64,000 nucleotides of DNA, taken from positions 171,195 through 235,194 of the forward strand of contig CAIONS010000068.1 in the NCBI GenBank assembly GCA_903859715.1. Direction: 5' to 3'. The notes below the pieces were generated by a model that did not search any database, had not been told where the DNA came from, and saw only the letters and a program-made list of their open reading frames with translations. The position numbers and the translations under genes are program-made. This stretch comes from an uncultured Opitutia bacterium. Lineage in GTDB: Bacteria > Verrucomicrobiota > Verrucomicrobiia > Opitutales > Opitutaceae. How positions within the stretch are numbered: position 1 is the stretch's first letter; every line of letters starts with the position of its first letter. Below, piece after piece: positions 50,676 through 64,000 of the stretch.

Positions 50676-51623
50676 ATGACTTCCTACGGGCAACTGCTGC
50701 TCCTCATCCTGCCGGTCTTTGCGCTCATGGCGCTGGGCATGGGGCTGCGCCGGGTGGGCTGGCTCACGGCCGAGGCGGACACGAGCCTGCTGAAGGTCGT
50801 CGTGAACGTCCTCTATCCCTGCATCATTTTCGAGAACGTGCATGCGAACCCGGCGCTGCGCGATCCCGGCAACCTCGCGTGGGCGCCGCTGGTCGGGTTC
50901 GTGACGATGAGCGGCGGCATCGCCGTCTGTTATTATGCGGCGCGGCTGCTCGGCTTCACGGTGGGCACTGGCTTGCGCACGTTCGCGTTCTCGGCGGGCA
51001 TCTACAATTACAGCTACATCACCGTGCCGGTGATGACGGCGCTATTCGGGACCGGAAGTCTCGGCGTGCTGTTTGCGCACAACGTCGGGGCCGAGGCGGC
51101 CATCTGGATCGTGGGCATCATGGTCCTGACGGGGCGATCCTGGCGGGACGGCTGGCGCCAGCTGCTCAGTCCGCCAGTAGTGGCGCTGGTCGTTTCAGTG
51201 GCGGTCAATCTGACGGGGCTCGGTTCGCACCTGCCGGGGATGATCCTCGATGTGGTGCGGCCACTGTCAGCCTGCGCCATCCCCATGGGGCTGATTCTCA
51301 GCGGGGCCACGATGGCGGAGCATTTTTTCCAGCGGCCGCGCGAGTTGTTCCAGATGCGCACGTCGTTCGCCGCGGTGGGCCTGCGGCTTGGCGTGATGAC
51401 GGGGCTGTTACTGCTACTGGCGCGCTTCGGGCCGTTTTCTACCGATCTCAAGCATGTGATCATGGTGCAGGCGGCGATGCCCGCGGGATTTTTGCCGCTG
51501 GTGCTCGTGCGGCATCATGGCGGGCACCTGCTGACGGCGGTGCGCGTGGTGCTGGCGACGGTGGTGGCCAGCATCCTGTTGACGCCGCTCTGGCTGCGGC
51601 TTGGGCAGGTCTGGGTGGGATGA
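50676..51623 (+). CDS. AEC family (auxin efflux carrier-like) transporter
   Basis: FALMALGMGLRRVGWLT; LKVVVNVLYPCIIF; 10-TM pattern. Confidence 0.88.
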   Translation: MTSYGQLLLLILPVFALMALGMGLRRVGWLTAEADTSLLKVVVNVLYPCIIFENVHANPALRDPGNLAWAPLVGFVTMSGGIAVCYYAARLLGFTVGTGLRTFAFSAGIYNYSYITVPVMTALFGTGSLGVLFAHNVGAEAAIWIVGIMVLTGRSWRDGWRQLLSPPVVALVVSVAVNLTGLGSHLPGMILDVVRPLSACAIPMGLILSGATMAEHFFQRPRELFQMRTSFAAVGLRLGVMTGLLLLLARFGPFSTDLKHVIMVQAAMPAGFLPLVLVRHHGGHLLTAVRVVLATVVASILLTPLWLRLGQVWVG

Positions 51624-51705
51624 GAGTGGCAGCTCATGGAGTGATCCCGGGTTAGCGTTGTCTTCCACGGGGGCCGCGAATGGGATCGGGCGCTTTCCTC
51701 TCCCC

Positions 51706-53880
51706 ATGAAATCCGGCCTGCTCCCCAAGATTCACCGTGAAATCCGCTGCGGCGCGACGACCGCGCTCTACGTCCAGGATCCCGCCAGCGGCCGGCTTGG
51801 CCTGTGGCTGGTGCCGACGAGTCTCCGCCGCCGGCTGGCGCCGCGCCGGGAATTTCTCAGTGGCGTGGAGATCGACGGCACCCTCAGCCCGACATTTCAG
51901 GGTCCGCCAGCGTGGGCAGTAGAATCTCTCCTACAGCTGAAAACAAGGGAGGATGATGCCGTAGCGGCGTTCGGGCAGGGCCGCACGATGCGCAACGGCC
52001 CGACCGTCGAACGGATGAAGTTCACGGGCCAGCAGGTCGCCCGGGCGGGCGGCATCACGACCGTGCGGACGAGCTTCACCCATCCGGACGGCTGGCAGGC
52101 GCATCATGACCTGTGCTGGCGGCGGGGCGCGGGTTGGTTGGAGAGCAGTGTGACGGTGGAGAACACCTCGGCACAGCCGGTCACGCTGGAGTTTCTCGCG
52201 AGCTTCTCGATCGGCGGGCTGGCCGCATTTGCGAAAGACGACGCACCGGGTCGGCTGCGGCTGCACCGGTTCCGCAGCGTCTGGAGCATGGAGGGGCGGC
52301 TGGAAACGCGGGCTTTCGAAGACCTGCAGCTGGAACGCGCGTGGGCGGGTTCCGCCGTGCGCAACGAGCGGTTTGGTGCCGTGGGTTCGCTGCCGGTGAA
52401 CGGCTTTTTCCCCTTCATTGCGGTGGAGGACACGGGAGCCGGCGTGACGTGGGGTGCGCAGCTCGCGCACCCGGGCTCGTGGCAAATGGAGGCTTACCGG
52501 CGCGATGATCTTGCGGCGATTTCCGGCGGTCTGGCGGATCGTGAACTTGGCCATTGGATGAAAACCCTGGCGCCCGGGACTGGTTTCACCTCGCCGACGG
52601 CGACCTTGGCCTGCGTGGCCGGCGATCTTGATGACCTGTGCTCCGCCTTGACGGCGGCGCAGGAAATGCCGCTGGCGACTCTGCCGAAAAGCGAGGCCAC
52701 GTTGCCAGTGTTGTTCAACGAATGGGCGACAAGCTGGGGCAACCCGAGCCACGAGAACATGACCGCGCTCGCGCAGGCGCTGCGCGGCACCGGCATCAAG
52801 TATCTCGTGATGGACGCGGGCTGGTATAAACCGGTGGGCGGCGACTGGTCCACCGCGCAAGGCGACTGGCAGCCGAACGCCACCATGTACCCGCACGGCC
52901 TGCGCGCCACCGCGGACGCCATCCGCGCGTGCGAGTTGATCCCGGGCATCTGGTTTGAACTGGAAGTCATCGGCTCCGTCTCGCCGCTGTTTGCGCGCAC
53001 CGATCTGCTGCTGCACCGCGACGGCCGGGTCCTGACGGTCGGCAGCCGGCGGTTTCTCGACTTTCGCAAACCGGAAGTCATCGCGCATCTCACCGCCCGG
53101 GTCATCGACCTGTTGCAGGCGGGCAATTTCGGCTACCTCAAGGTGGACTATAACGACAGCCTCGGCCTCGGCGTGGATGGGGCGGAGTCGCTGGGCGAGG
53201 GATTGCGCCAGCATCTCGCGGGCGTGCAGGCCTTCTTCCGGAAACTCCGGACGGAGCTGCCCGACCTCGTCATTGAGAACTGTTCATCGGGCGGACACCG
53301 CCTCGAGCCGTCGATGATGGGCCTGACGGCGATGAGCAGCTTCTCGGATGCGCACGAGTGCCCGGAGATCCCGATCATCGCGGCCAACCTCCACCGGCTC
53401 ATGCTGCCGCGGCAAAGCCAGATCTGGGCGGTGCTGCGCGCGAAGGAAAGTCTGCAGCGCATCGTTTATCTCCTCGCCGGCGGATTCCTTGGCCGGCTGT
53501 GCCTGTCAGGGGATTTCCCCACGCTGCGGCCGGAGCAGCGGGCGCTCGTCGATCGCGCGATCGAACTCTACGCGCAGGCGGCGCCGGTGATCCGGCGCGG
53601 CCGTTCGCACCGCCATGGTCCCGAGGTCGCGGCTTACCGGCATGCGCAGGGCTGGCAGGTGGTGGTGCGCGCGGATGCCGATGGGAAAAAGCTGCTGGTG
53701 GTCGGGCACACCTTCGAAAATCCCGGCGTTAAAACCATCCGCGTGCCGCTGCCGCCGGGCCGCTGGCGCGTGGCGGGTGAACTGCACACCGACCGGCGTG
53801 GCGTGACGCTCGCGAAGGGCGAACTCCGCTGGCAGCCCGCAGGTGAGTGGTGCGCGAATGTGGTGCTGCTGACGCGCTGA
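51706..53880 (+). CDS. GH36-like alpha-galactosidase
   Basis: VLFNEWATSWGNPSHENM; LVMDAGWY; GIWFELEVI; GYLKVDYND; ENCSSGGHRLEPSM. Confidence 0.85.
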   Translation: MKSGLLPKIHREIRCGATTALYVQDPASGRLGLWLVPTSLRRRLAPRREFLSGVEIDGTLSPTFQGPPAWAVESLLQLKTREDDAVAAFGQGRTMRNGPTVERMKFTGQQVARAGGITTVRTSFTHPDGWQAHHDLCWRRGAGWLESSVTVENTSAQPVTLEFLASFSIGGLAAFAKDDAPGRLRLHRFRSVWSMEGRLETRAFEDLQLERAWAGSAVRNERFGAVGSLPVNGFFPFIAVEDTGAGVTWGAQLAHPGSWQMEAYRRDDLAAISGGLADRELGHWMKTLAPGTGFTSPTATLACVAGDLDDLCSALTAAQEMPLATLPKSEATLPVLFNEWATSWGNPSHENMTALAQALRGTGIKYLVMDAGWYKPVGGDWSTAQGDWQPNATMYPHGLRATADAIRACELIPGIWFELEVIGSVSPLFARTDLLLHRDGRVLTVGSRRFLDFRKPEVIAHLTARVIDLLQAGNFGYLKVDYNDSLGLGVDGAESLGEGLRQHLAGVQAFFRKLRTELPDLVIENCSSGGHRLEPSMMGLTAMSSFSDAHECPEIPIIAANLHRLMLPRQSQIWAVLRAKESLQRIVYLLAGGFLGRLCLSGDFPTLRPEQRALVDRAIELYAQAAPVIRRGRSHRHGPEVAAYRHAQGWQVVVRADADGKKLLVVGHTFENPGVKTIRVPLPPGRWRVAGELHTDRRGVTLAKGELRWQPAGEWCANVVLLTR

Positions 53881-53955: not shown

Positions 53956-54984
53956 TCAGTCGTCCTTCTCCGGCGTCGCGGGCCTCATATCCATGTCGTT
54001 CGTGGCGAGGTTGCCCACGGCGCTGGGGATGTAACGGTGATTTTTCCGGCGGGTCTCCGGGTCTTCCAGCGCTGCGCACGGCGTGCCGAAGCGCGGCTGC
54101 GCGTAGGGCAGGTGCGTGTCGCCGCGCGCGAGGATGTGCGAGGCGCTGCTCATGAGCGTCACGGGATCCTGCTTCGGTGCGCCGGGTCCGGTGATCGGGC
54201 CCCATTGGGTGAACGAGCGCGCGTTGCAGTAGTGGCTCACGAAGGAGCGGCGGAAACGGTCGGGGGTGATGTTGGTCTTGCTGCGGTGCAGGACGTGGCC
54301 GTTGAAAAACACCACGTCGCCCGCTTTCGCCGGCACGAGGAGCTGCGGATAACGGTTGGCGACCGGGCTCAGCTGATTGCGTGAGTCGTCGGTGTCGCTG
54401 ACGTGCGCGACCTCCGGGACGCCGGGCAGCTGGCGGTCGCCGTACCACTGCTCGGCCTTGGGCGGCGGATACACGGGCTCGATCTGGCTGCCCGCGGCCA
54501 TCCACATCGCGCCGTTGTATTCATCGCAGTCGTCGATCGCGATCCACGCACCGCAGAGCGTGTCGGGATGCGTGGGAATATAGAATGTGTCCTGGTGCCA
54601 GCCCTGGCCGGGCGAGCCCGGCGGCTTGAGGAAGAGCATCGTTTGCAGGGCCAGGACATCGGGGCCGATGAGGGTCTCCAGCACGTCGAGCACCCGCGGA
54701 TGCAACAGGTAGCGTTCATGCAGCGGCACCTGGCGGTGCAACATGTGGATGCGCGCGACCAGCTGGGCTTTCTCCAGCGGCGGGAGATGGGCCGGCGGCA
54801 GCGGCAGGCGGTCGGCCTCGGGCGTGTCCGGGTGCTGCTGGGGCACGCGGCCCTGCATCAGGTCCTCGGTGTGCTCCCGCAGCTCCTGGATGTCGGCGGC
54901 CGGGACGAGGCCGGGGATGACCACATAGCCATCGCGGCGGAACCGGCGGTAGTCGTCGATGGAGACCTTGTAGGACGAGGACAT
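53956..54984 (-). CDS. Phytanoyl-CoA dioxygenase (PhyH) family protein
   Basis: RRFRRDGYVVIPGLVP; GWHQDTFYIPTHPDTLCGAWIAIDDCDEYNG; GDVVFFNGHVLHRSKTN. Confidence 0.92.
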   Translation of the reverse strand: MSSSYKVSIDDYRRFRRDGYVVIPGLVPAADIQELREHTEDLMQGRVPQQHPDTPEADRLPLPPAHLPPLEKAQLVARIHMLHRQVPLHERYLLHPRVLDVLETLIGPDVLALQTMLFLKPPGSPGQGWHQDTFYIPTHPDTLCGAWIAIDDCDEYNGAMWMAAGSQIEPVYPPPKAEQWYGDRQLPGVPEVAHVSDTDDSRNQLSPVANRYPQLLVPAKAGDVVFFNGHVLHRSKTNITPDRFRRSFVSHYCNARSFTQWGPITGPGAPKQDPVTLMSSASHILARGDTHLPYAQPRFGTPCAALEDPETRRKNHRYIPSAVGNLATNDMDMRPATPEKDD

Positions 54985-56299: not shown

Positions 56300-57895
56300 A
56301 TGAAGCTCAAGCAGGTGGGGATTGTCGTGCTGGTGCTCGGCTACGCGGCGGCAGCGTGGCTGGTCTGGCGGCATTCGCACCGCGCAACCGGGACGGAACG
56401 CGTGACGATCCGGCTTTGCCACTGGCAGTTGGAAGGCACGGTGCGCGAGGGGCTGGTGGCGGTGGCGCGGCGTTATGAGCAGCTGCATCCGGAGGTGAAG
56501 ATCGAGCTCCTGGTCGTGCCCGAGAACATCTACCGGCAGTGGATGCGCACCCAACTGGTCGGCGGCACGGCGCCGGACCTCATCGAATACACGATGTATT
56601 GGGGCCGCATCGAGGAGCTGGCGCCGCGGTATTTCACGCCGATCTCGCGGGAGGTGGCGGAGCCGAATCCCTACAACCGCGGCACGCCGCTCGAGGGTGT
56701 GCCGTGGCGCGATACGTTCCTCGACGGCATGACCGGGCCGGACGGCTACAACACGCTGATGCGTGAATACTACGCGCCGACCATCGCGATGTTCACGATG
56801 CGGCTCTTCTACAACCGCACGCTGCTCCGCGAGATCACCGGCCGGGACGAGCCCCCGGCGACGTGGCGGGAATTTCTCGCGCTGCGCGACGCCGTGAACG
56901 CCTATGCGAAGCGGGATGGGCGCATGCTCTCGACCGTCATCAACTCGCGCGACAACAGCTGGTGGCTCGCGATCCCGCTGCTGCACGGGATGGGCAGCCA
57001 TTTTTCCCCGCAGCTGGACCACGACCACTCGCTAAGCCTGTCGTATTGGGAAATGTCCCTGGGCTGGCTGCGCGGCGAATGGTCGTTCCGGACGCCGGAG
57101 GTCGCGAACGGCCTCGCGGTGTTCCGGGAGATGGGCAACGCGAGCCAGCCGGGGTTTGTGCAGATGCGGCGGGACGCCGCCATGCTGGATTTCCTGCGCG
57201 GCCACGGACTCATGCTGTGCGCGGGCAGCTGGGATGCGAGCAGCCTGCGTCGCGAGGCGCCGTTCGAGGTCGGGGCGTTCCGCCTGCCGCTGCCGGACGC
57301 GAAGGATCCGGAGTTCGGGCCGATGATGCTGGGGCCGGTGTCCGACGGCTCGGTGCAGACCTCGACGCCGTTCTACCTCAACAAGGCCTCGGCCCATCCG
57401 GCCGAAGCGCTGGATTTCCTGCGGTTCCTCACGAGCGTCGAGGGCGACCAGATCTTCGTGGATGTGAGCCAGTGGCTGCCCGCGATCAAGCACGTGCGAC
57501 CGACGGATTTTTCCCAGCGGTTCATGCCGTTCTACGACGGCTACAACTGGGGCCCGAATTCCTATTTCAACGGCACCGGGACGGAGATGACCATGTTCTT
57601 CCTGCAGGAGATGCACCGGATGTTCGGGCCCAACGGCAGCGTGGCGGCGTTCCAGGACGAGATGGAGCGGCACGGGTCGGTCTACTCCGATCGCGACCTG
57701 CAGGCGCACCTGCGCGACTCGCGCGTGGCCTTCAACACCGACGACGTGACGGACACCGCGCGCCTGCGCGTGTCGGGCGAGACCGACCGGCTACCAGCCT
57801 CGCCGGCACTGCTCGAGGCAAAGTATTACCAAACGGCGCGGGAGATGGCGCGCGCCGTCCAACGCCGGCAGGCGGCCCAGGAGGCACATCCATGA
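56300..57895 (+). CDS. Extracellular solute-binding protein (ABC sugar family 1-like) with N-terminal membrane anchor, paralog A
   Basis: VTIRLCHWQLEGTVREGLVAVARRYEQLHPEVKIELLVVP; HPAEALDFLRFLTSVEGDQIF. Confidence 0.88.
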   Translation: MKLKQVGIVVLVLGYAAAAWLVWRHSHRATGTERVTIRLCHWQLEGTVREGLVAVARRYEQLHPEVKIELLVVPENIYRQWMRTQLVGGTAPDLIEYTMYWGRIEELAPRYFTPISREVAEPNPYNRGTPLEGVPWRDTFLDGMTGPDGYNTLMREYYAPTIAMFTMRLFYNRTLLREITGRDEPPATWREFLALRDAVNAYAKRDGRMLSTVINSRDNSWWLAIPLLHGMGSHFSPQLDHDHSLSLSYWEMSLGWLRGEWSFRTPEVANGLAVFREMGNASQPGFVQMRRDAAMLDFLRGHGLMLCAGSWDASSLRREAPFEVGAFRLPLPDAKDPEFGPMMLGPVSDGSVQTSTPFYLNKASAHPAEALDFLRFLTSVEGDQIFVDVSQWLPAIKHVRPTDFSQRFMPFYDGYNWGPNSYFNGTGTEMTMFFLQEMHRMFGPNGSVAAFQDEMERHGSVYSDRDLQAHLRDSRVAFNTDDVTDTARLRVSGETDRLPASPALLEAKYYQTAREMARAVQRRQAAQEAHP

Positions 57896-58845
57896 ACCGC
57901 CTGTCGCCGGGATCATTGGCGCCGCTACGGCCGCCGCCGGGTCTGGCGCAGCCGCAACATGCCGTTTCCGCCGGAACAGTTTGTCACCCATTAGGTGACA
58001 AACTGAAAAGGCGCCGTGGCGCCGGGAGTGGGGTGGCATTGATGCTGGCGCTGGGGGCCGGGCTGATGTTGGCCCGCGTGGCGCGGGCGTCGACGGAGGA
58101 AAACTGGCGGGCACTTTCGCTGCTCAAGGCGGACGAGGCGCTGCGGGGGTTCGAGGCCGACCGGGCAACGGCCACGCCGGCCGGAGCGCGCGAGGCGGAT
58201 TTCGGCCGGGCGGTGGCGCTGCTGGTGCGGCAGCCCCTCACGCCGGAGCAGGTGGAGGAGGCGCGGAAGCTGTTCACCGCGCTGGCCGACAGCGGGACGG
58301 ATGACGTGGCGCAGGGCGCGCGCTATTTTCTCGGGCGAATCGCGCAGCATCATTTGGAGCAGGCGGACCCGGCCGAGGCGGCGCGGCAGTACCGGCGGCT
58401 GCTCGCGGAGCACGGGGCGTCGATCTGGGCGCAGACCGCGCTGACCCGGCTGGTGCTGCTGGAGCTGTACCCGGCGGATCCGGCCGGGGCGCCCGCGGCC
58501 AGCGTGGCCGCGGCGGAAAAACTGCTGGCGGAAGCGCGGCGGCCGGTGACGCAGAGCGAACTGCACCTCGTGCTGGCGGATGCGATCTTCTATTATGGGC
58601 TGCCGCCGGCGGAGGCGCTGCCGCACCTGCTGGCGGCGGAAGAACTGCGGCAGCTGGACCCGCCGACGCGGGCGGATGTACTGGTCCAGATCGCGGAGGT
58701 CTCGGTGCTGGTGGGAAACCGGGTCCAGGCGCGGCGGTTTTATGAGACATTCCTGGCGGAATTTCCGCTGGACCAGCGCCGGTTTATGGTCGGGCAGAAG
58801 CTGAAGGGATTGGGCGGCGGCACGCCGCCGGGAGTTGGGAGATAG
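57892..58845 (+). CDS. TPR-like helical-repeat protein, paralog A (unusual N-terminal extension)
   Basis: ATGA overlap with SBP gene; QGARYFLGRIAQHHLEQADPAEAARQYRRLLAEHG; paralog of 63138-63944. Confidence 0.8.
   Translation: MNRLSPGSLAPLRPPPGLAQPQHAVSAGTVCHPLGDKLKRRRGAGSGVALMLALGAGLMLARVARASTEENWRALSLLKADEALRGFEADRATATPAGAREADFGRAVALLVRQPLTPEQVEEARKLFTALADSGTDDVAQGARYFLGRIAQHHLEQADPAEAARQYRRLLAEHGASIWAQTALTRLVLLELYPADPAGAPAASVAAAEKLLAEARRPVTQSELHLVLADAIFYYGLPPAEALPHLLAAEELRQLDPPTRADVLVQIAEVSVLVGNRVQARRFYETFLAEFPLDQRRFMVGQKLKGLGGGTPPGVGR
57977..58005. repeat. Perfect hairpin CAGTTTGTCACC-CATTA-GGTGACAAACTG (copy 2) inside coding sequence
   Basis: 12-bp stem; contains the same 27-mer as 40887-40913. 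Confidence 0.9.
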
Positions 58846-58890
58846 GAGTTGGAAGATTGAAAACCTGCGCTGCGTGGCCCGGGCGGGGAT

Positions 58891-59005
58891 GGCCACAAAA
58901 AGGCACAAGGGATCCGAGGCTGCGAAGGAGCCTTCATTGCGCCCATAGGCGCGCGGGAGATTTGATCCGGAGCCTTGGAGCCCTTGGGCCTTTTTGTGGC
59001 TATCC
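58891..59005. repeat. ~115-nt dispersed element, copy B
   Basis: ggccacaaaaaggcacaaggg...tgcgaaggagccttcattgcgcccataggcgcgcgggaga...cccttgggcctttttgtggct. Confidence 0.85.
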
Positions 59006-59071
59006 GATTGGCTCGATGGGCTTGGCGTTGAACCGGGTTGCAGGCCGGTGTTGTTTCGCCAGCTTGGGTGC

Positions 59072-59572
59072 ATGAGAAAACTTCTGATCTTGGGCGTGCT
59101 GACCGTCTCGGCCCTGAGTGCATTTGCGCAGGCGAACAACGGCTGGCTGACGGTGGAGGAACAGGTCGCGGCGGCGGTGAAAGGTCCGCAGGTGACGGTG
59201 GTGCATTTCTGGGCGCCGTGGTGCCCGAACAGCAAGGCGGAGCTGGCGAAGGGGGCGTGGAGCACGTTTCTCGCCCTCAATACCGACGTGAAATTCATCT
59301 TTGTCACGGTGCGCAGCACGGATGACGGCAAGGCGCTGCTCGTGAAGAACGGCGTCGGCCCGCAGGCAAATCTCACGCTGCTGCACCACCCGAATCATGT
59401 GCGCAAGGGCGAGGGCAGCATCCAGACGTTCATGGACATCCCGATGACATGGGTGCCGACGACGTGGGTGTTCCGCGACGGCAAGCTCTGCTACGCGTTG
59501 AATTATGGCGAGGTGCGCTTTCCGCTCCTGCAGCAGCTGATCCGCGACGCCGCGAATCCGTGGGAGCATTGA
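59072..59572 (+). CDS. Secreted thioredoxin-like protein with monothiol WCPNS motif
   Basis: Signal peptide; VTVVHFWAPWCPNSKAELAK; VPTTWVFRDGK (cis-Pro region). Confidence 0.85.
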   Translation: MRKLLILGVLTVSALSAFAQANNGWLTVEEQVAAAVKGPQVTVVHFWAPWCPNSKAELAKGAWSTFLALNTDVKFIFVTVRSTDDGKALLVKNGVGPQANLTLLHHPNHVRKGEGSIQTFMDIPMTWVPTTWVFRDGKLCYALNYGEVRFPLLQQLIRDAANPWEH

Positions 59573-59703
59573 ACCTGATTTTTAACCACGAAGAGCACGA
59601 AGGCCACGAAGTTCAAACCATGGATGACCGAGGAAGCCCTTCCGGACTTCGTGATCTTCGTGTGCTTTGTGGTTAAATCAGATCTCGGTCTTCTTATCGG
59701 CCG

Positions 59704-61356
59704 CTACTGGTCCATGATCGCGCGGTAGGCGAGGAAGTCGGTGTGGAGGCGGTGGAAGACCTGGTGTTTGCGGGCGTGGAAAGCCCGCACCTTGCCGGCC
59801 GTGGGCTGGATCGTGCGGCCGGCGGCGCTCATCGCGGCCATCGCGGTGGCGACGCTGGCATGGCGGCCGGCGGCGACCGCGCCGAGCATGGCGGAACCGA
59901 GCAGGACGGCTTCGGGTTCCTTGGGCAGCACAATCGCGCAGCCGGTGATGTCGGCGTGCTCGCGGAGGAAGACGGGATTTTTCGTGCCGCCGCCGCAGGC
60001 AGAGAGCGTGTCGATGCGGTAGCCGCGACGGTTCATCGCGTCGATGATGTGGCGCGTGCCGTGGGCCACGGCCTGCACGGCGGCGAGATACTGCAGGGCG
60101 AGATCGTCGACGGTGGCGGAGAGCGCGAGGCCGCTCACGGCGCCGCGCAGGGTCGGGTCGGCACGCGGTGAACGGTTGCCATGGAAATCGGGCTGCACGT
60201 GCAAGTGGCGCGTGAGCTCGCCGGGGAAGCGCGCGCCTTGGGTTTGGGCGAGGGCGTCGAGCCGGGCGTTGAGCAGCTCGTAGATCGTGCACCCGGCTTT
60301 CTTTGCCTTGGCGGTGAGCGGCGCGGCGGCGGCGTGCGAGAAGATGACATGGTCGATGAGCGCGCCCGTGGCGGACTGGCCGCCTTCGGTGAGCCAGAGG
60401 CCGGGGACCATCGCGGAAAAATACGGGCCCCAGATGCCGGGAATGAAACGTGGTTTGGCGGACACGGCCATGTGGCACGACGACGTGCCGCCGATGAGCG
60501 CGAGCCGGCGCTCGAGCGTCGTTACGCCAATGGCCGAGCTGCGCAGGCCGGCGCCCAGCACACCGAGGCCGCCGGCATGGGCGTCGATGATCCCCACGCC
60601 CACGGCGGTACCGGCGCGGAGGCCGAGTTCAGCGGCGGCGCGGGCGGTGAGTCCGTGGCCGACCGGCGCGCCCATCGAGGCGACTTTTTGGCCGATGCGG
60701 CGGAATTTTTCCGCGGCGAGATCGCCGAGACCGATGCGCTTGAAATAGGATTCATCCCAACCGCCGCCGCGCCGGTGTCCGAGGTGAGTCCACTTGCAGA
60801 CCGTGGTGCAGAGTGAGCGGGTATCGTCGCCGGTGGCGCGGTAGGTGAGGAAATCGGGCAGGTCGAGGAAGCGCGCGGCGCGGCGCCACGTGGCCGGCAG
60901 GTTTTGTTTCAGCCAGAGCAGCTTCGGGGTCTGCATCTCGGGTGAGATGACGCCACCGACGTAGCGCAGCACGGGATGATGCGTGCGATTGATGGCCGCG
61001 GCCTGCGGGAGAGCACGGTGATCCATCCAGACGATCACGTTTTGGGCGGCGCGGCCGGTGGGGCTGACGGAGACCGGGCGGTCCTTCGCATCGAGCACGA
61101 CGAGTGAGCACGTGGCGTCGAAGCCGATCCCGGCGATGGCACCGGGCGAGACGCGGGCGTTTTTCAAGGCGGCGCGGACCGCGCGACCGCAGGCGGCCCA
61201 GATGTCGTCGGAGGAGTGCTCGGCGAAATCGGGCGCGGGGCGCCAGAGTTTGATCGGCTGGGTGGCGTGGCCGAGCATGCGGCCGGTGGCGGTGAAGATG
61301 CCGGCGCGGGCGCTGCCGGTGCCGACGTCGATGCCGAGGTAGAGTTTCGTGGCCAT
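59704..61356 (-). CDS. FGGY-family carbohydrate (pentulose-type) kinase
   Basis: [73 protein letters not shown]. Confidence 0.94.
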
Positions 61357-61422
61357 GGGGTGGGGGTGCGGCGAGGATTTGCGGGACGCGCGGGGGCGGC
61401 AAGCTCGGGCTGATGGGTGTAG

Positions 61423-61479
61423 GCGGGGTGCCCTCACCCCGCATTGATCCAGTGGCGGGTGAGGGCACCCGCCCCACAT
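61423..61479. repeat. Inverted-repeat element related to 1845-1901
   Basis: gtaggcggggtgccctcaccccgcattgatccagtggcgggtgagggcacccgccccaca versus gtaggcggggtgcctcaccccgcgttgattcaatgacgggtgagggcacccgtcccaca. Confidence 0.85.
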
Positions 61480-61563
61480 TTCGGTCAAGGCGGCCGGCGA
61501 TGAAAAATCCTGCAGCGACCGCTTGGCGAACGGTCCGGGTTAGTCTACACCGCCGGGGCCTTA

Positions 61564-63141
61564 ATGAAGTTTTCCAGAAAAACGGTGGGTTTTGTCCTGA
61601 TCGGTTCGGCTTACCTCATCTCCACCTTCATCGTGCTGCGTCGCACGACGGAGGAAGTGCGATCAGACCGGGTGACGATCCGGATTTCCCAATGGCAGCT
61701 CGAACTGGGGGTGCGCGAGGGGATCGACACGATTATCAAGCGCTATGAGCAGCTGAACCCGAAGGTGCATGTGGTGCAGATTGCGGTGCCGGGCAGCGCC
61801 TACCTGCCCTGGGTGCAGACCCAGATGGTGGGCGGAACCGGTCCGGATATCGTGGAGTATTCCTTCCCCTGGCCGGACACGGGAAGGAATTTTCAGCCGA
61901 TCGACGCGGATGTGATGCAGCCGAACCCTTATAACAAGGGCACGCCACTCGAGGGCGTCGCATGGAAGGATACGTTCATCGACGGGATGATCAGCCCGGA
62001 TAACTTCGTGCAGTCGCTGAACGCCTATTATTCGGTCTCGATGTCGACGGGTGTGCCACGGATCGCGTACAACCGGCAGCTGCTGAAAACGATCACAGGA
62101 AGCGACGCGCCGCCGCACACCTACCGTGAGCTGGTTGGGTTGGCCGACCAGATCAAGGCCTACTCGAAGGCGCATGGATTGAATATCGCTCCGCTGGCCA
62201 ACTCGCACGACACGCACAAGGGCCTGACCGACGGCATCATGTCGGGCATGTGTTTCTATCTTTACCAACGCCTCGATTACCGGCACCGCCTCAAGAATGA
62301 CCCGTCGGATCTTGGCATGTCCTATCTGCGGGGAGAGTGGAGCTTCGATTCGCCCGAAGTGGTCGCAGGGCTCAAGGCTCTGCGGGAATACAGCGAGATG
62401 TGTCCGCCCGCCTTCCTGCAGCGGCTGCGTGAGACCGCGTTGATCGATTTTGTCAGCGGCCGGGCGGTCATGATTGTCGCGCCCGCCTTTGAAGCGGGCA
62501 GCCTGAAGGAGATCTCCCCGTTTCCCATCGGTGCCTTCCGGTATCCCTATCCGCGCGAGGATGATCCGGTCTACGGCCGCTACGCCAAAGGCCCGTTGAG
62601 TGAGGGCCAGGTTATCACCGGGATGCCGTTTTATCTCAACCGGATGACCCGGCACCGGGCGGAGGCGATCGACTTCATGCGGTTCATGACCAGCCATGAA
62701 GGCAGCACGATCTTCACCCGCCTGAGCAACTGGATGCCAGTCACAATCGGCGTGAAGGCGTCTAACTATGTCGCCCAGTTCATGCCCGACCCCAAGGGCT
62801 ACACTTGGTATGCCGGCGTGACCGATCCCTGCCAGCATGTGGACTCGCGGGAATATCTTTTCAATGAAATGGGCGCGCTGATGAACCAGGACGGCAATGT
62901 GGATGCCTACCGCAAGATCGTGCGCGAGGGACTGGGCGTGAGAATCCGCGATGATCTCCGGCGGGATGTAATCGCCGGGCTGCAGAATATCCGGAGCGGG
63001 GATGTCGCGGCGACGGCCGCGGTGGAGTTGGCCCAGCCAGCGCGCCGGCCGGAAACGGTGCGGCTCGTGACCATCTCGAACGAGATCCGGACTTACCAGA
63101 CGCGAGCCGTGGTCACCGGTGCAGTGGGGGCGACACCATGA
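61564..63141 (+). CDS. Extracellular solute-binding protein with N-terminal membrane anchor, paralog B
   Basis: VTIRISQWQLELGVREGIDTIIKRYEQLNPKVHVVQIAVPG; shared QPNPYNKGTPLEGVAWKDTFIDGM with paralog A. Confidence 0.88.
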   Translation: MKFSRKTVGFVLIGSAYLISTFIVLRRTTEEVRSDRVTIRISQWQLELGVREGIDTIIKRYEQLNPKVHVVQIAVPGSAYLPWVQTQMVGGTGPDIVEYSFPWPDTGRNFQPIDADVMQPNPYNKGTPLEGVAWKDTFIDGMISPDNFVQSLNAYYSVSMSTGVPRIAYNRQLLKTITGSDAPPHTYRELVGLADQIKAYSKAHGLNIAPLANSHDTHKGLTDGIMSGMCFYLYQRLDYRHRLKNDPSDLGMSYLRGEWSFDSPEVVAGLKALREYSEMCPPAFLQRLRETALIDFVSGRAVMIVAPAFEAGSLKEISPFPIGAFRYPYPREDDPVYGRYAKGPLSEGQVITGMPFYLNRMTRHRAEAIDFMRFMTSHEGSTIFTRLSNWMPVTIGVKASNYVAQFMPDPKGYTWYAGVTDPCQHVDSREYLFNEMGALMNQDGNVDAYRKIVREGLGVRIRDDLRRDVIAGLQNIRSGDVAATAAVELAQPARRPETVRLVTISNEIRTYQTRAVVTGAVGATP

Positions 63142-63944
63142 AAATCAACGTCCTGGGATTTTTTCTGAGCCTGAGTTTCGCTGCTGCGACGGCGGCGGGC
63201 GCCGAGCTCACCGCCGGCTGGCAGGCGCTCGCCAACTACCGGGCGGAAGAAGCGTTGAAGGTTTTCGACGGCCGTCTCAACGATCCGAATCCTGCTGTGG
63301 CGCGGGAGGCGCGCTTCGGGCACGCGGTCGCGCTGCTCGACCGGCAGCCGGTCTCGGACAGCCAGGTGGCGGAGGCGCGGCGCATGTTTGCGGAACTCGC
63401 CGGCAGCGGGGCGGATGACTTTGCGCAGGGCGCACGTTTCTATCTCGGCCGGATCGCGCAGCATCATCTGCTCCAGCCGGATCCGGTGGAGGCCGCGCGC
63501 CAATACCGGCAGTTGATCGCGGAGCACGGAGATTCCGTCTGGGCGCAGACCGCCCTCAGCCGACTGGCGCTCATGATGATCTACGATCTCGACCCGGCGG
63601 CCGTGCCGCCGGCGCGTATCGCCGAGGCGGAAAGGCTGCTGGCTTACGCCAAGACTCCATCGGCCGAGAGCGAGCTGCATCTGGTCATTGCGAGTGCGAT
63701 TTTCTTTTACCGGCTGCCTTCGGCACCGGCGCTGCCGCACTTACTGAAAGTGGTGCAGCTCGGCCGGGTGGAATGGACGGTGCGCAGCGAGGTTCTGGTG
63801 CAGGTGGCCGAACTTTCACGTCAGGCGGGCCGGAAGGCGGAGGCGTTGAAATACTACCAGATGTTTCTGAAGGAAAATCCCACCGATCCCCGCGAGTATA
63901 TCATCCGGGAGCGGATGACGGCGCTGGAGAAGACGGCGGGGTGA
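63138..63944 (+). CDS. TPR-like helical-repeat secreted protein, paralog B
   Basis: Signal peptide MKINVLGFFLSLSFAAATAAGA; QGARFYLGRIAQHHLLQPDPVEAARQYRQLIAEHGDSVWAQTALSRLAL; ATGA overlap with SBP. Confidence 0.85.
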   Translation: MKINVLGFFLSLSFAAATAAGAELTAGWQALANYRAEEALKVFDGRLNDPNPAVAREARFGHAVALLDRQPVSDSQVAEARRMFAELAGSGADDFAQGARFYLGRIAQHHLLQPDPVEAARQYRQLIAEHGDSVWAQTALSRLALMMIYDLDPAAVPPARIAEAERLLAYAKTPSAESELHLVIASAIFFYRLPSAPALPHLLKVVQLGRVEWTVRSEVLVQVAELSRQAGRKAEALKYYQMFLKENPTDPREYIIRERMTALEKTAG

Positions 63945-64000
63945 GCGTTGAGGTAGGGCGAATCCTCCGGATGAGCCGTTGGTCGATTCGGCGTTACGGC

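Follow-up and report, generated by a model that had tools for sequence, protein, structure and literature searches.

Gene content of the locus

The window analyzed here is a 64,000-nucleotide stretch of contig C68 in the draft genome of an uncultured bacterium of the Opitutaceae. Toward its end lie two gene pairs, each made up of a family-1 sugar solute-binding protein (SBP) and a helical-repeat (TPR) protein, together with a small number of neighboring genes. The features, in positions of the window, are as follows.

51601..53880, + strand: melibiase (alpha-galactosidase-type), PF02065 E 3.3e-29; the true start is probably downstream of 51601
53956-54984: phytanoyl-CoA-dioxygenase-like gene (Pfam)
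56300..57895, + strand: SBP1, sugar solute-binding protein of family 1; N-terminal transmembrane (TM) anchor that looks uncleaved; SBP_bac_1 E 1.4e-17; ATG start
57892..58845, + strand: TPR1, secreted helical-repeat partner of SBP1; 50% identical to TPR2
58994..59572, + strand: thioredoxin-like protein, encoded after cassette 1 and before the kinase; weak StoA_CxxC match
59704..61356, - strand: FGGY-family pentulose kinase, TIGR01315 680 bits (cut-off 408.7)
61564..63141, + strand: SBP2, paralog of SBP1 whose N-terminal TM anchor likewise looks uncleaved; SBP_bac_8 E 1.4e-10
63138..63944, + strand: TPR2, periplasmic TPR partner of SBP2; TPR_14 E 1.9e-6; signal peptide without lipobox

The initial annotation of this DNA had described two paralogous SBP-TPR pairs joined by an ATGA overlap, and every element of that description was found again, including the coordinates and the quoted motifs. 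The 4-nt overlap can be read at 57892-57895 and at 63138-63141, the two SBPs share 38% identity (E 9e-117), and the two TPR proteins share 50%. Judged by these identities and the shared motifs, the pairs are true paralogs, not a chance resemblance. Both SBPs exceed the Pfam cut-offs for SBP_bac_1/SBP_bac_8, TPR2 has a single C-terminal TPR_14 match above the Pfam cut-off, and TPR1 has no Pfam match; no specific NCBIfam name was obtained for either the SBP or the TPR protein. TPR2 is predicted by AlphaFold to form a 14-helix repeat (pLDDT 94.9). The N-terminal hydrophobic segment of both SBPs lacks cysteine and shows no obvious site for cleavage, which bears out the earlier description of an uncleaved-looking TM start without a lipobox; the corresponding segment of TPR2 also has no cysteine, so that none of the three proteins is lipoprotein-like. 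A Pfam search found no signaling domain in the SBPs or the TPR proteins.

The FGGY-family kinase is probably a catabolic neighbor of the cassettes, and the melibiase possibly forms part of their catabolic context. An ORF with a matching N-terminal sequence occupies the same place as the thioredoxin-like gene (58994-59572) in the nearest relative (genome G005), and we found no evidence tying this protein to the transporter.

As had been reported, no BPD_transp_1 permease lies within the 64-kb window; the same genome holds 22 matches to this domain elsewhere. Contig C68 stops at base 64000, 56 nt past TPR2, and absence of a permease from the window alone is therefore no proof of its absence from the locus.

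Further pairs in the same genome

The duplication that had been noted is real, but it is larger than was described: searches of the organism's own genome recovered six intact SBP-TPR pairs and one decayed pair. Three pairs stand in a tandem array and a fourth stands alone on contig C4, and all four have the order TPR then SBP, opposite to that of the window. In the decayed seventh pair (L031 5878-7184, contig C65), the TPR gene is intact, and the SBP keeps its own sequence for about 100 residues and then reads on into an unrelated one. The pairs outside the window adjoin other sugar genes; those on C4 include GH123, alpha-L-fucosidase, and heparinase-like genes, and GlcNAc-6-phosphate-type genes were recognized by eye. 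The initial annotation's idea that the window pairs diverged in specificity around the FGGY kinase is plausible. A second phytanoyl-CoA-dioxygenase-like gene, also recognized by eye, lies near the C4 cassette (L028 1539-2486).

The genome encodes three further sugar-type SBPs, each with its own adjacent MalF/MalG. These were not picked up by the SBP profile, and they serve as internal controls. At L018 3023-5338 (C68:76-78 kb), a different sugar SBP and the MalF-type permease that belongs to it are joined in a single reading frame.

A separately encoded permease and ATPase

Contig C42 begins with a MalF-MalG pair from the permease family whose genes directly follow TPR-SBP across the Verrucomicrobiota. 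Its members are UgpA/MalF-like and MalG/UgpE-like, with scores below the equivalog cut-offs. Because C42 starts 172 nt upstream of the MalF ORF, a linked upstream gene is excluded only by synteny in relatives, and because an exact-word comparison found no overlap of the end of C68 with the starts of C42 or C4, the contigs cannot be joined. The initial annotation had proposed a look beyond base 64000, and the nearest relative provides it. In G005 (C17, L133), 6.6 kb of other genes, none of them a permease, lie beyond the same two cassettes, and the MalF-MalG pair is on a separate contig with downstream sigma-factor and RecQ-like genes, as on C42. This synteny rejects a permease immediately past cassette 2 on the far side of the contig break.

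The same arrangement recurs throughout the genus, for which draft assemblies were compared. Exactly one C42-type MalG is present in each of 12 genomes, together with 4 to 8 SBP-TPR pairs per genome, and the SBP count equals the TPR count in 11 of the 12. No SBP or TPR gene was found beside MalF-MalG in the 12 permease regions of the genus, some of which lie on contigs that end near the gene. In this genus the SBP is thus not encoded beside the permease; in most of the phylum the two are neighbors. The three other sugar-type permease sets of the genome (C9, C56, and C68:77-79 kb) each have their own SBP, and they score about 54-69 bits to the C42 MalF, versus 437-572 for operonic relatives.

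One UgpC-subfamily MalK exceeds its cut-off in this genome. It is encoded on contig C60, carries a TOBE_2 domain, and is 58% identical to the operonic MalK of a Verrucomicrobiales relative (L084); no SBP or permease of the family discussed here lies beside it.

The operon across Verrucomicrobiota

Among 291 genomes of the phylum, the SBP occurs in 46, the MalG in 49, and both in 44 (raw Fisher value 6e-44, which ignores relatedness). The SBP copy numbers of this survey are lower bounds, as at most five SBP candidates were scored in each genome. Counted by genus, the SBP is present in 30 of 152 and the permease in 33 of 152. Outside the family, SBP and MalG lie within 5 kb of each other in 34 of the 36 genomes that hold both, nearly always in a 1:1 ratio.

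When 36 of the phylum loci were read directly, the TPR gene was upstream of the SBP in 35 and MalF-MalG, sometimes fused to each other, followed the SBP in 34; MalK was present in 4. At the one locus where a TPR gene was not detected (L181), it may have diverged past detection. The genome-context comparison that had been suggested thus finds the TPR gene present at orthologous loci, and the absence that was to speak against the pairing did not appear. Prevalence of the order TPR-SBP-MalF-MalG in these loci points to an ancestral arrangement TPR-SBP-MalF-MalG(-MalK).

In many distant Verrucomicrobiota (e.g., L157, L165, L166, L168, and L169), the MalF and MalG matches share one open frame, which suggests a fused permease.

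Pairing, co-divergence, and fusion of SBP and TPR

A TPR gene lies at most 400 nt from 95 of 97 SBP genes, with overlaps of 4 or 1 nt in 83 cases. Of the two exceptions, one (L067) is cut by a contig end and in the other (L086) the TPR gene is a longer ORF directly upstream. The two proteins also diverge together. Over 95 pairs, the SBP and TPR distance matrices correlate with r 0.90, compared to r 0.22 (maximum, 0.37) when partners are shuffled within a genome and r 0.55 (maximum, 0.72) when they are shuffled within both genome and gene-order class; the observed value was reached by 0 of 2000 shuffles in either test.

Five single-ORF SBP-TPR fusions, in three lineages, were found, all inside the clade with SBP-TPR order. 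In a quick SBP tree without bootstrap, the 28 SBP-TPR pairs and the 5 fusions form one group (33 rows, SH-aLRT 99), and a single switch in gene order is therefore sufficient. The fused chains retain the N-terminal hydrophobic segment of the SBP and drop the TPR signal peptide, so that both domains are expected to be periplasmic. In the CAITEC genome (L041, L049, and L051), all four SBP-TPR-clade cassettes found are single-chain fusions, one of them divergent to MalF-MalG.

A natural fusion of 803 residues was folded with AlphaFold from an alignment in which the five fusions were the only joined rows and all other SBP and TPR rows were unpaired; the model was scored by pLDDT (93.9) and pTM (0.91). 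Given this pTM, the two domains appear to be confidently placed against each other in the model. Its N-terminal segment is one continuous helix (residues 3-31), and the SBP is extended at its C terminus by a stretch that includes a long helix (residues 447-490) and may plausibly form a contact to the TPR domain.

The proposal that the TPR protein is an obligate partner of a tethered SBP gains from all of this: pairing is near universal, the partners co-diverge, and they have fused in three lineages. At the level of sequence, the pairing looks obligate.

Discussion

We conclude that the cassettes are quite probably parts of an ABC importer of the CUT1 type to which a dedicated TPR protein in the periplasm has been added, and in which many tethered SBP-TPR receptors work with one permease and one solitary MalK. 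The genome contains the family-1 SBP, the MalF/MalG-type pair, and the MalK/UgpC ATPase of such importers, whereas an SBP beside the permease is not found in this genus. The cassettes would be the periplasmic receptor half of a maltose/glycerol-phosphate-like system, and the secreted TPR protein would be an extra dedicated subunit bound to the SBP. The sequences show that, in the Opitutaceae group to which this genome belongs, MalF-MalG stands by itself at a separate locus and the TPR-SBP pair is multiplied; in one lineage, the gene order switched to SBP-TPR, and the fusions arose in that order. Each tethered complex may capture a different glycan in the periplasm and dock on the single shared MalF-MalG, which would be powered by the solitary UgpC/MsmX-type ATPase encoded on C60. 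Copy numbers, co-occurrence, and the operon taken as ancestral lead us to infer that a single permease serves all of the SBPs. The TPR protein most likely packs on the SBP and its C-terminal helical extension, and such packing would keep the SBP competent for docking or ligand hand-off. A bolder reading, which we put forward tentatively and regard as somewhat doubtful, is that the system is a distinct class of ABC importer with the TPR protein as an essential part, clamping or gating the tethered SBP or passing ligand to it from the outer membrane.

Other explanations were weighed against this one. The initial annotation had raised a non-canonical capture system, for uptake or ligand sensing. 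A system that lacks a permease, or that is mainly a device for capture or sensing, is not supported, given a dedicated MalF-MalG at a separate locus whose family is operonic with its partners in most of the phylum. A related idea is that the tethered SBP-TPR pairs serve as glycan detectors that signal to regulators, with uptake left to other transporters. This would account for the TM tether, the many copies, and the lack of a permease adjoining the amplified copies; it is nevertheless unlikely, as 44 of the 46 genomes with the SBP family also have one specific type of permease, as the two share an operon across the phylum, and as neither protein has a signaling domain. We give similarly little credence to a general role of the TPR protein in the periplasm, as a CpoB- or BamD-like scaffold or assembly factor on which SBP expression or folding depends and which is no part of the working transporter. 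One duplicate per SBP, pairwise co-divergence, and fusion in three lineages would not be expected of a general scaffold, even though the fold matches are to generic TPR proteins, BamD first, and weak sequence matches are to CpoB/YbgF and PilF.

Slightly less probable again is that the amplified SBPs feed several sugar permeases of the genome beyond the C42 MalF-MalG. Three more sugar-type permease sets are available for such a role, but all three come with an SBP of their own and fall in a permease group distant from C42, and the SBP family co-occurs only with C42-type permeases. The least probable alternative, which we regard as very improbable, is an ordinary operon in which the permease lies just past the contig end after cassette 2 and the TPR gene is an incidental neighbor. 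The assembly itself invites this explanation, in that C68 ends so soon after TPR2 and C42 begins with MalF-MalG. The nearest relative contradicts it on both counts, with permease-free sequence after the same cassettes and with MalF-MalG on another contig next to C42-like downstream neighbors, and an incidental TPR gene would not be expected to co-diverge with the SBP and to fuse to it.

The preferred explanation, a many-receptor importer with a TPR subunit, has relatives among known systems. With CUT1 importers (MalEFGK2 and UgpBAEC), it shares the family-1 SBP fold, the MalF/MalG-like permeases, and a UgpC-type ATPase with TOBE_2, and the best structural matches of the SBP are oligosaccharide SBPs with a RafE-like fold (2i58/6pre). 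In contrast to those importers, the Verrucomicrobiota system adds a dedicated TPR subunit and a TM-anchored SBP, and in this genus the receptors are unlinked from the permease and present in 4 to 8 copies per permease. The closest parallel for the TPR protein is the TPR-protein-associated TRAP transporter (TPAT) of Treponema pallidum, TatT-TatPT-TatQM, in which direct SBP-TPR binding has been crystallized (PMC5812351); both systems pair an SBP with a TPR protein of the periplasm encoded in the same operon. TPAT has a TRAP-type SBP and permease, both of its partners are lipoproteins, and its ligands are thought to be hydrophobic (PMC5812351), whereas the system described here has an ABC-type SBP_bac_1/8 and a MalF/MalG-like permease, not DctP/DctQM, and no lipobox. 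The TPR gene here is operonic with the SBP gene and naturally fused to it, and binding of the two proteins is predicted. TatT was not among the best 50 Foldseek matches listed for the TPR protein; Foldseek and a PDB sequence search for a functional family gave only generic TPR matches, those from the PDB being weak.

The solitary MalK-type ATPase, whose gene lies apart from those of the transporters that it would energize, resembles the multitask ATPases MsmX and MsmK (PMC7658222). Unlike in those cases, the permease pair also appears to be shared, and it is the receptor pair that is multiplied.

Several SBPs feed one permease in HisJ/LAO-HisQMP and in the OppA set of Borrelia, and those SBPs are not known to have a dedicated TPR partner. 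Our search of the open-access literature (subscription journals lay outside its scope) turned up no account of an ABC sugar importer that has a TPR subunit, nor of this system in Verrucomicrobia. Provisionally, we therefore regard the TPR-bearing ABC sugar importer as new as a variant.

In the usual view, a type I ABC importer requires a single SBP, a pair of permease subunits, and an ATPase. Across the Verrucomicrobiota, a further TPR component accompanies the SBP, and the natural fusions are ready single-chain material for solving the SBP-TPR interface. For annotation, the findings carry a warning: SBPs of this kind should not be labeled orphans, and their permease need not be adjacent. If the bolder reading given above is correct, the TPR protein would standardize docking, so that many exchangeable glycan receptors plug into one permease and one ATPase. 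A layout with one permease and many receptors would show how glycan specialists can widen their diet by duplicating the receptor pair alone.
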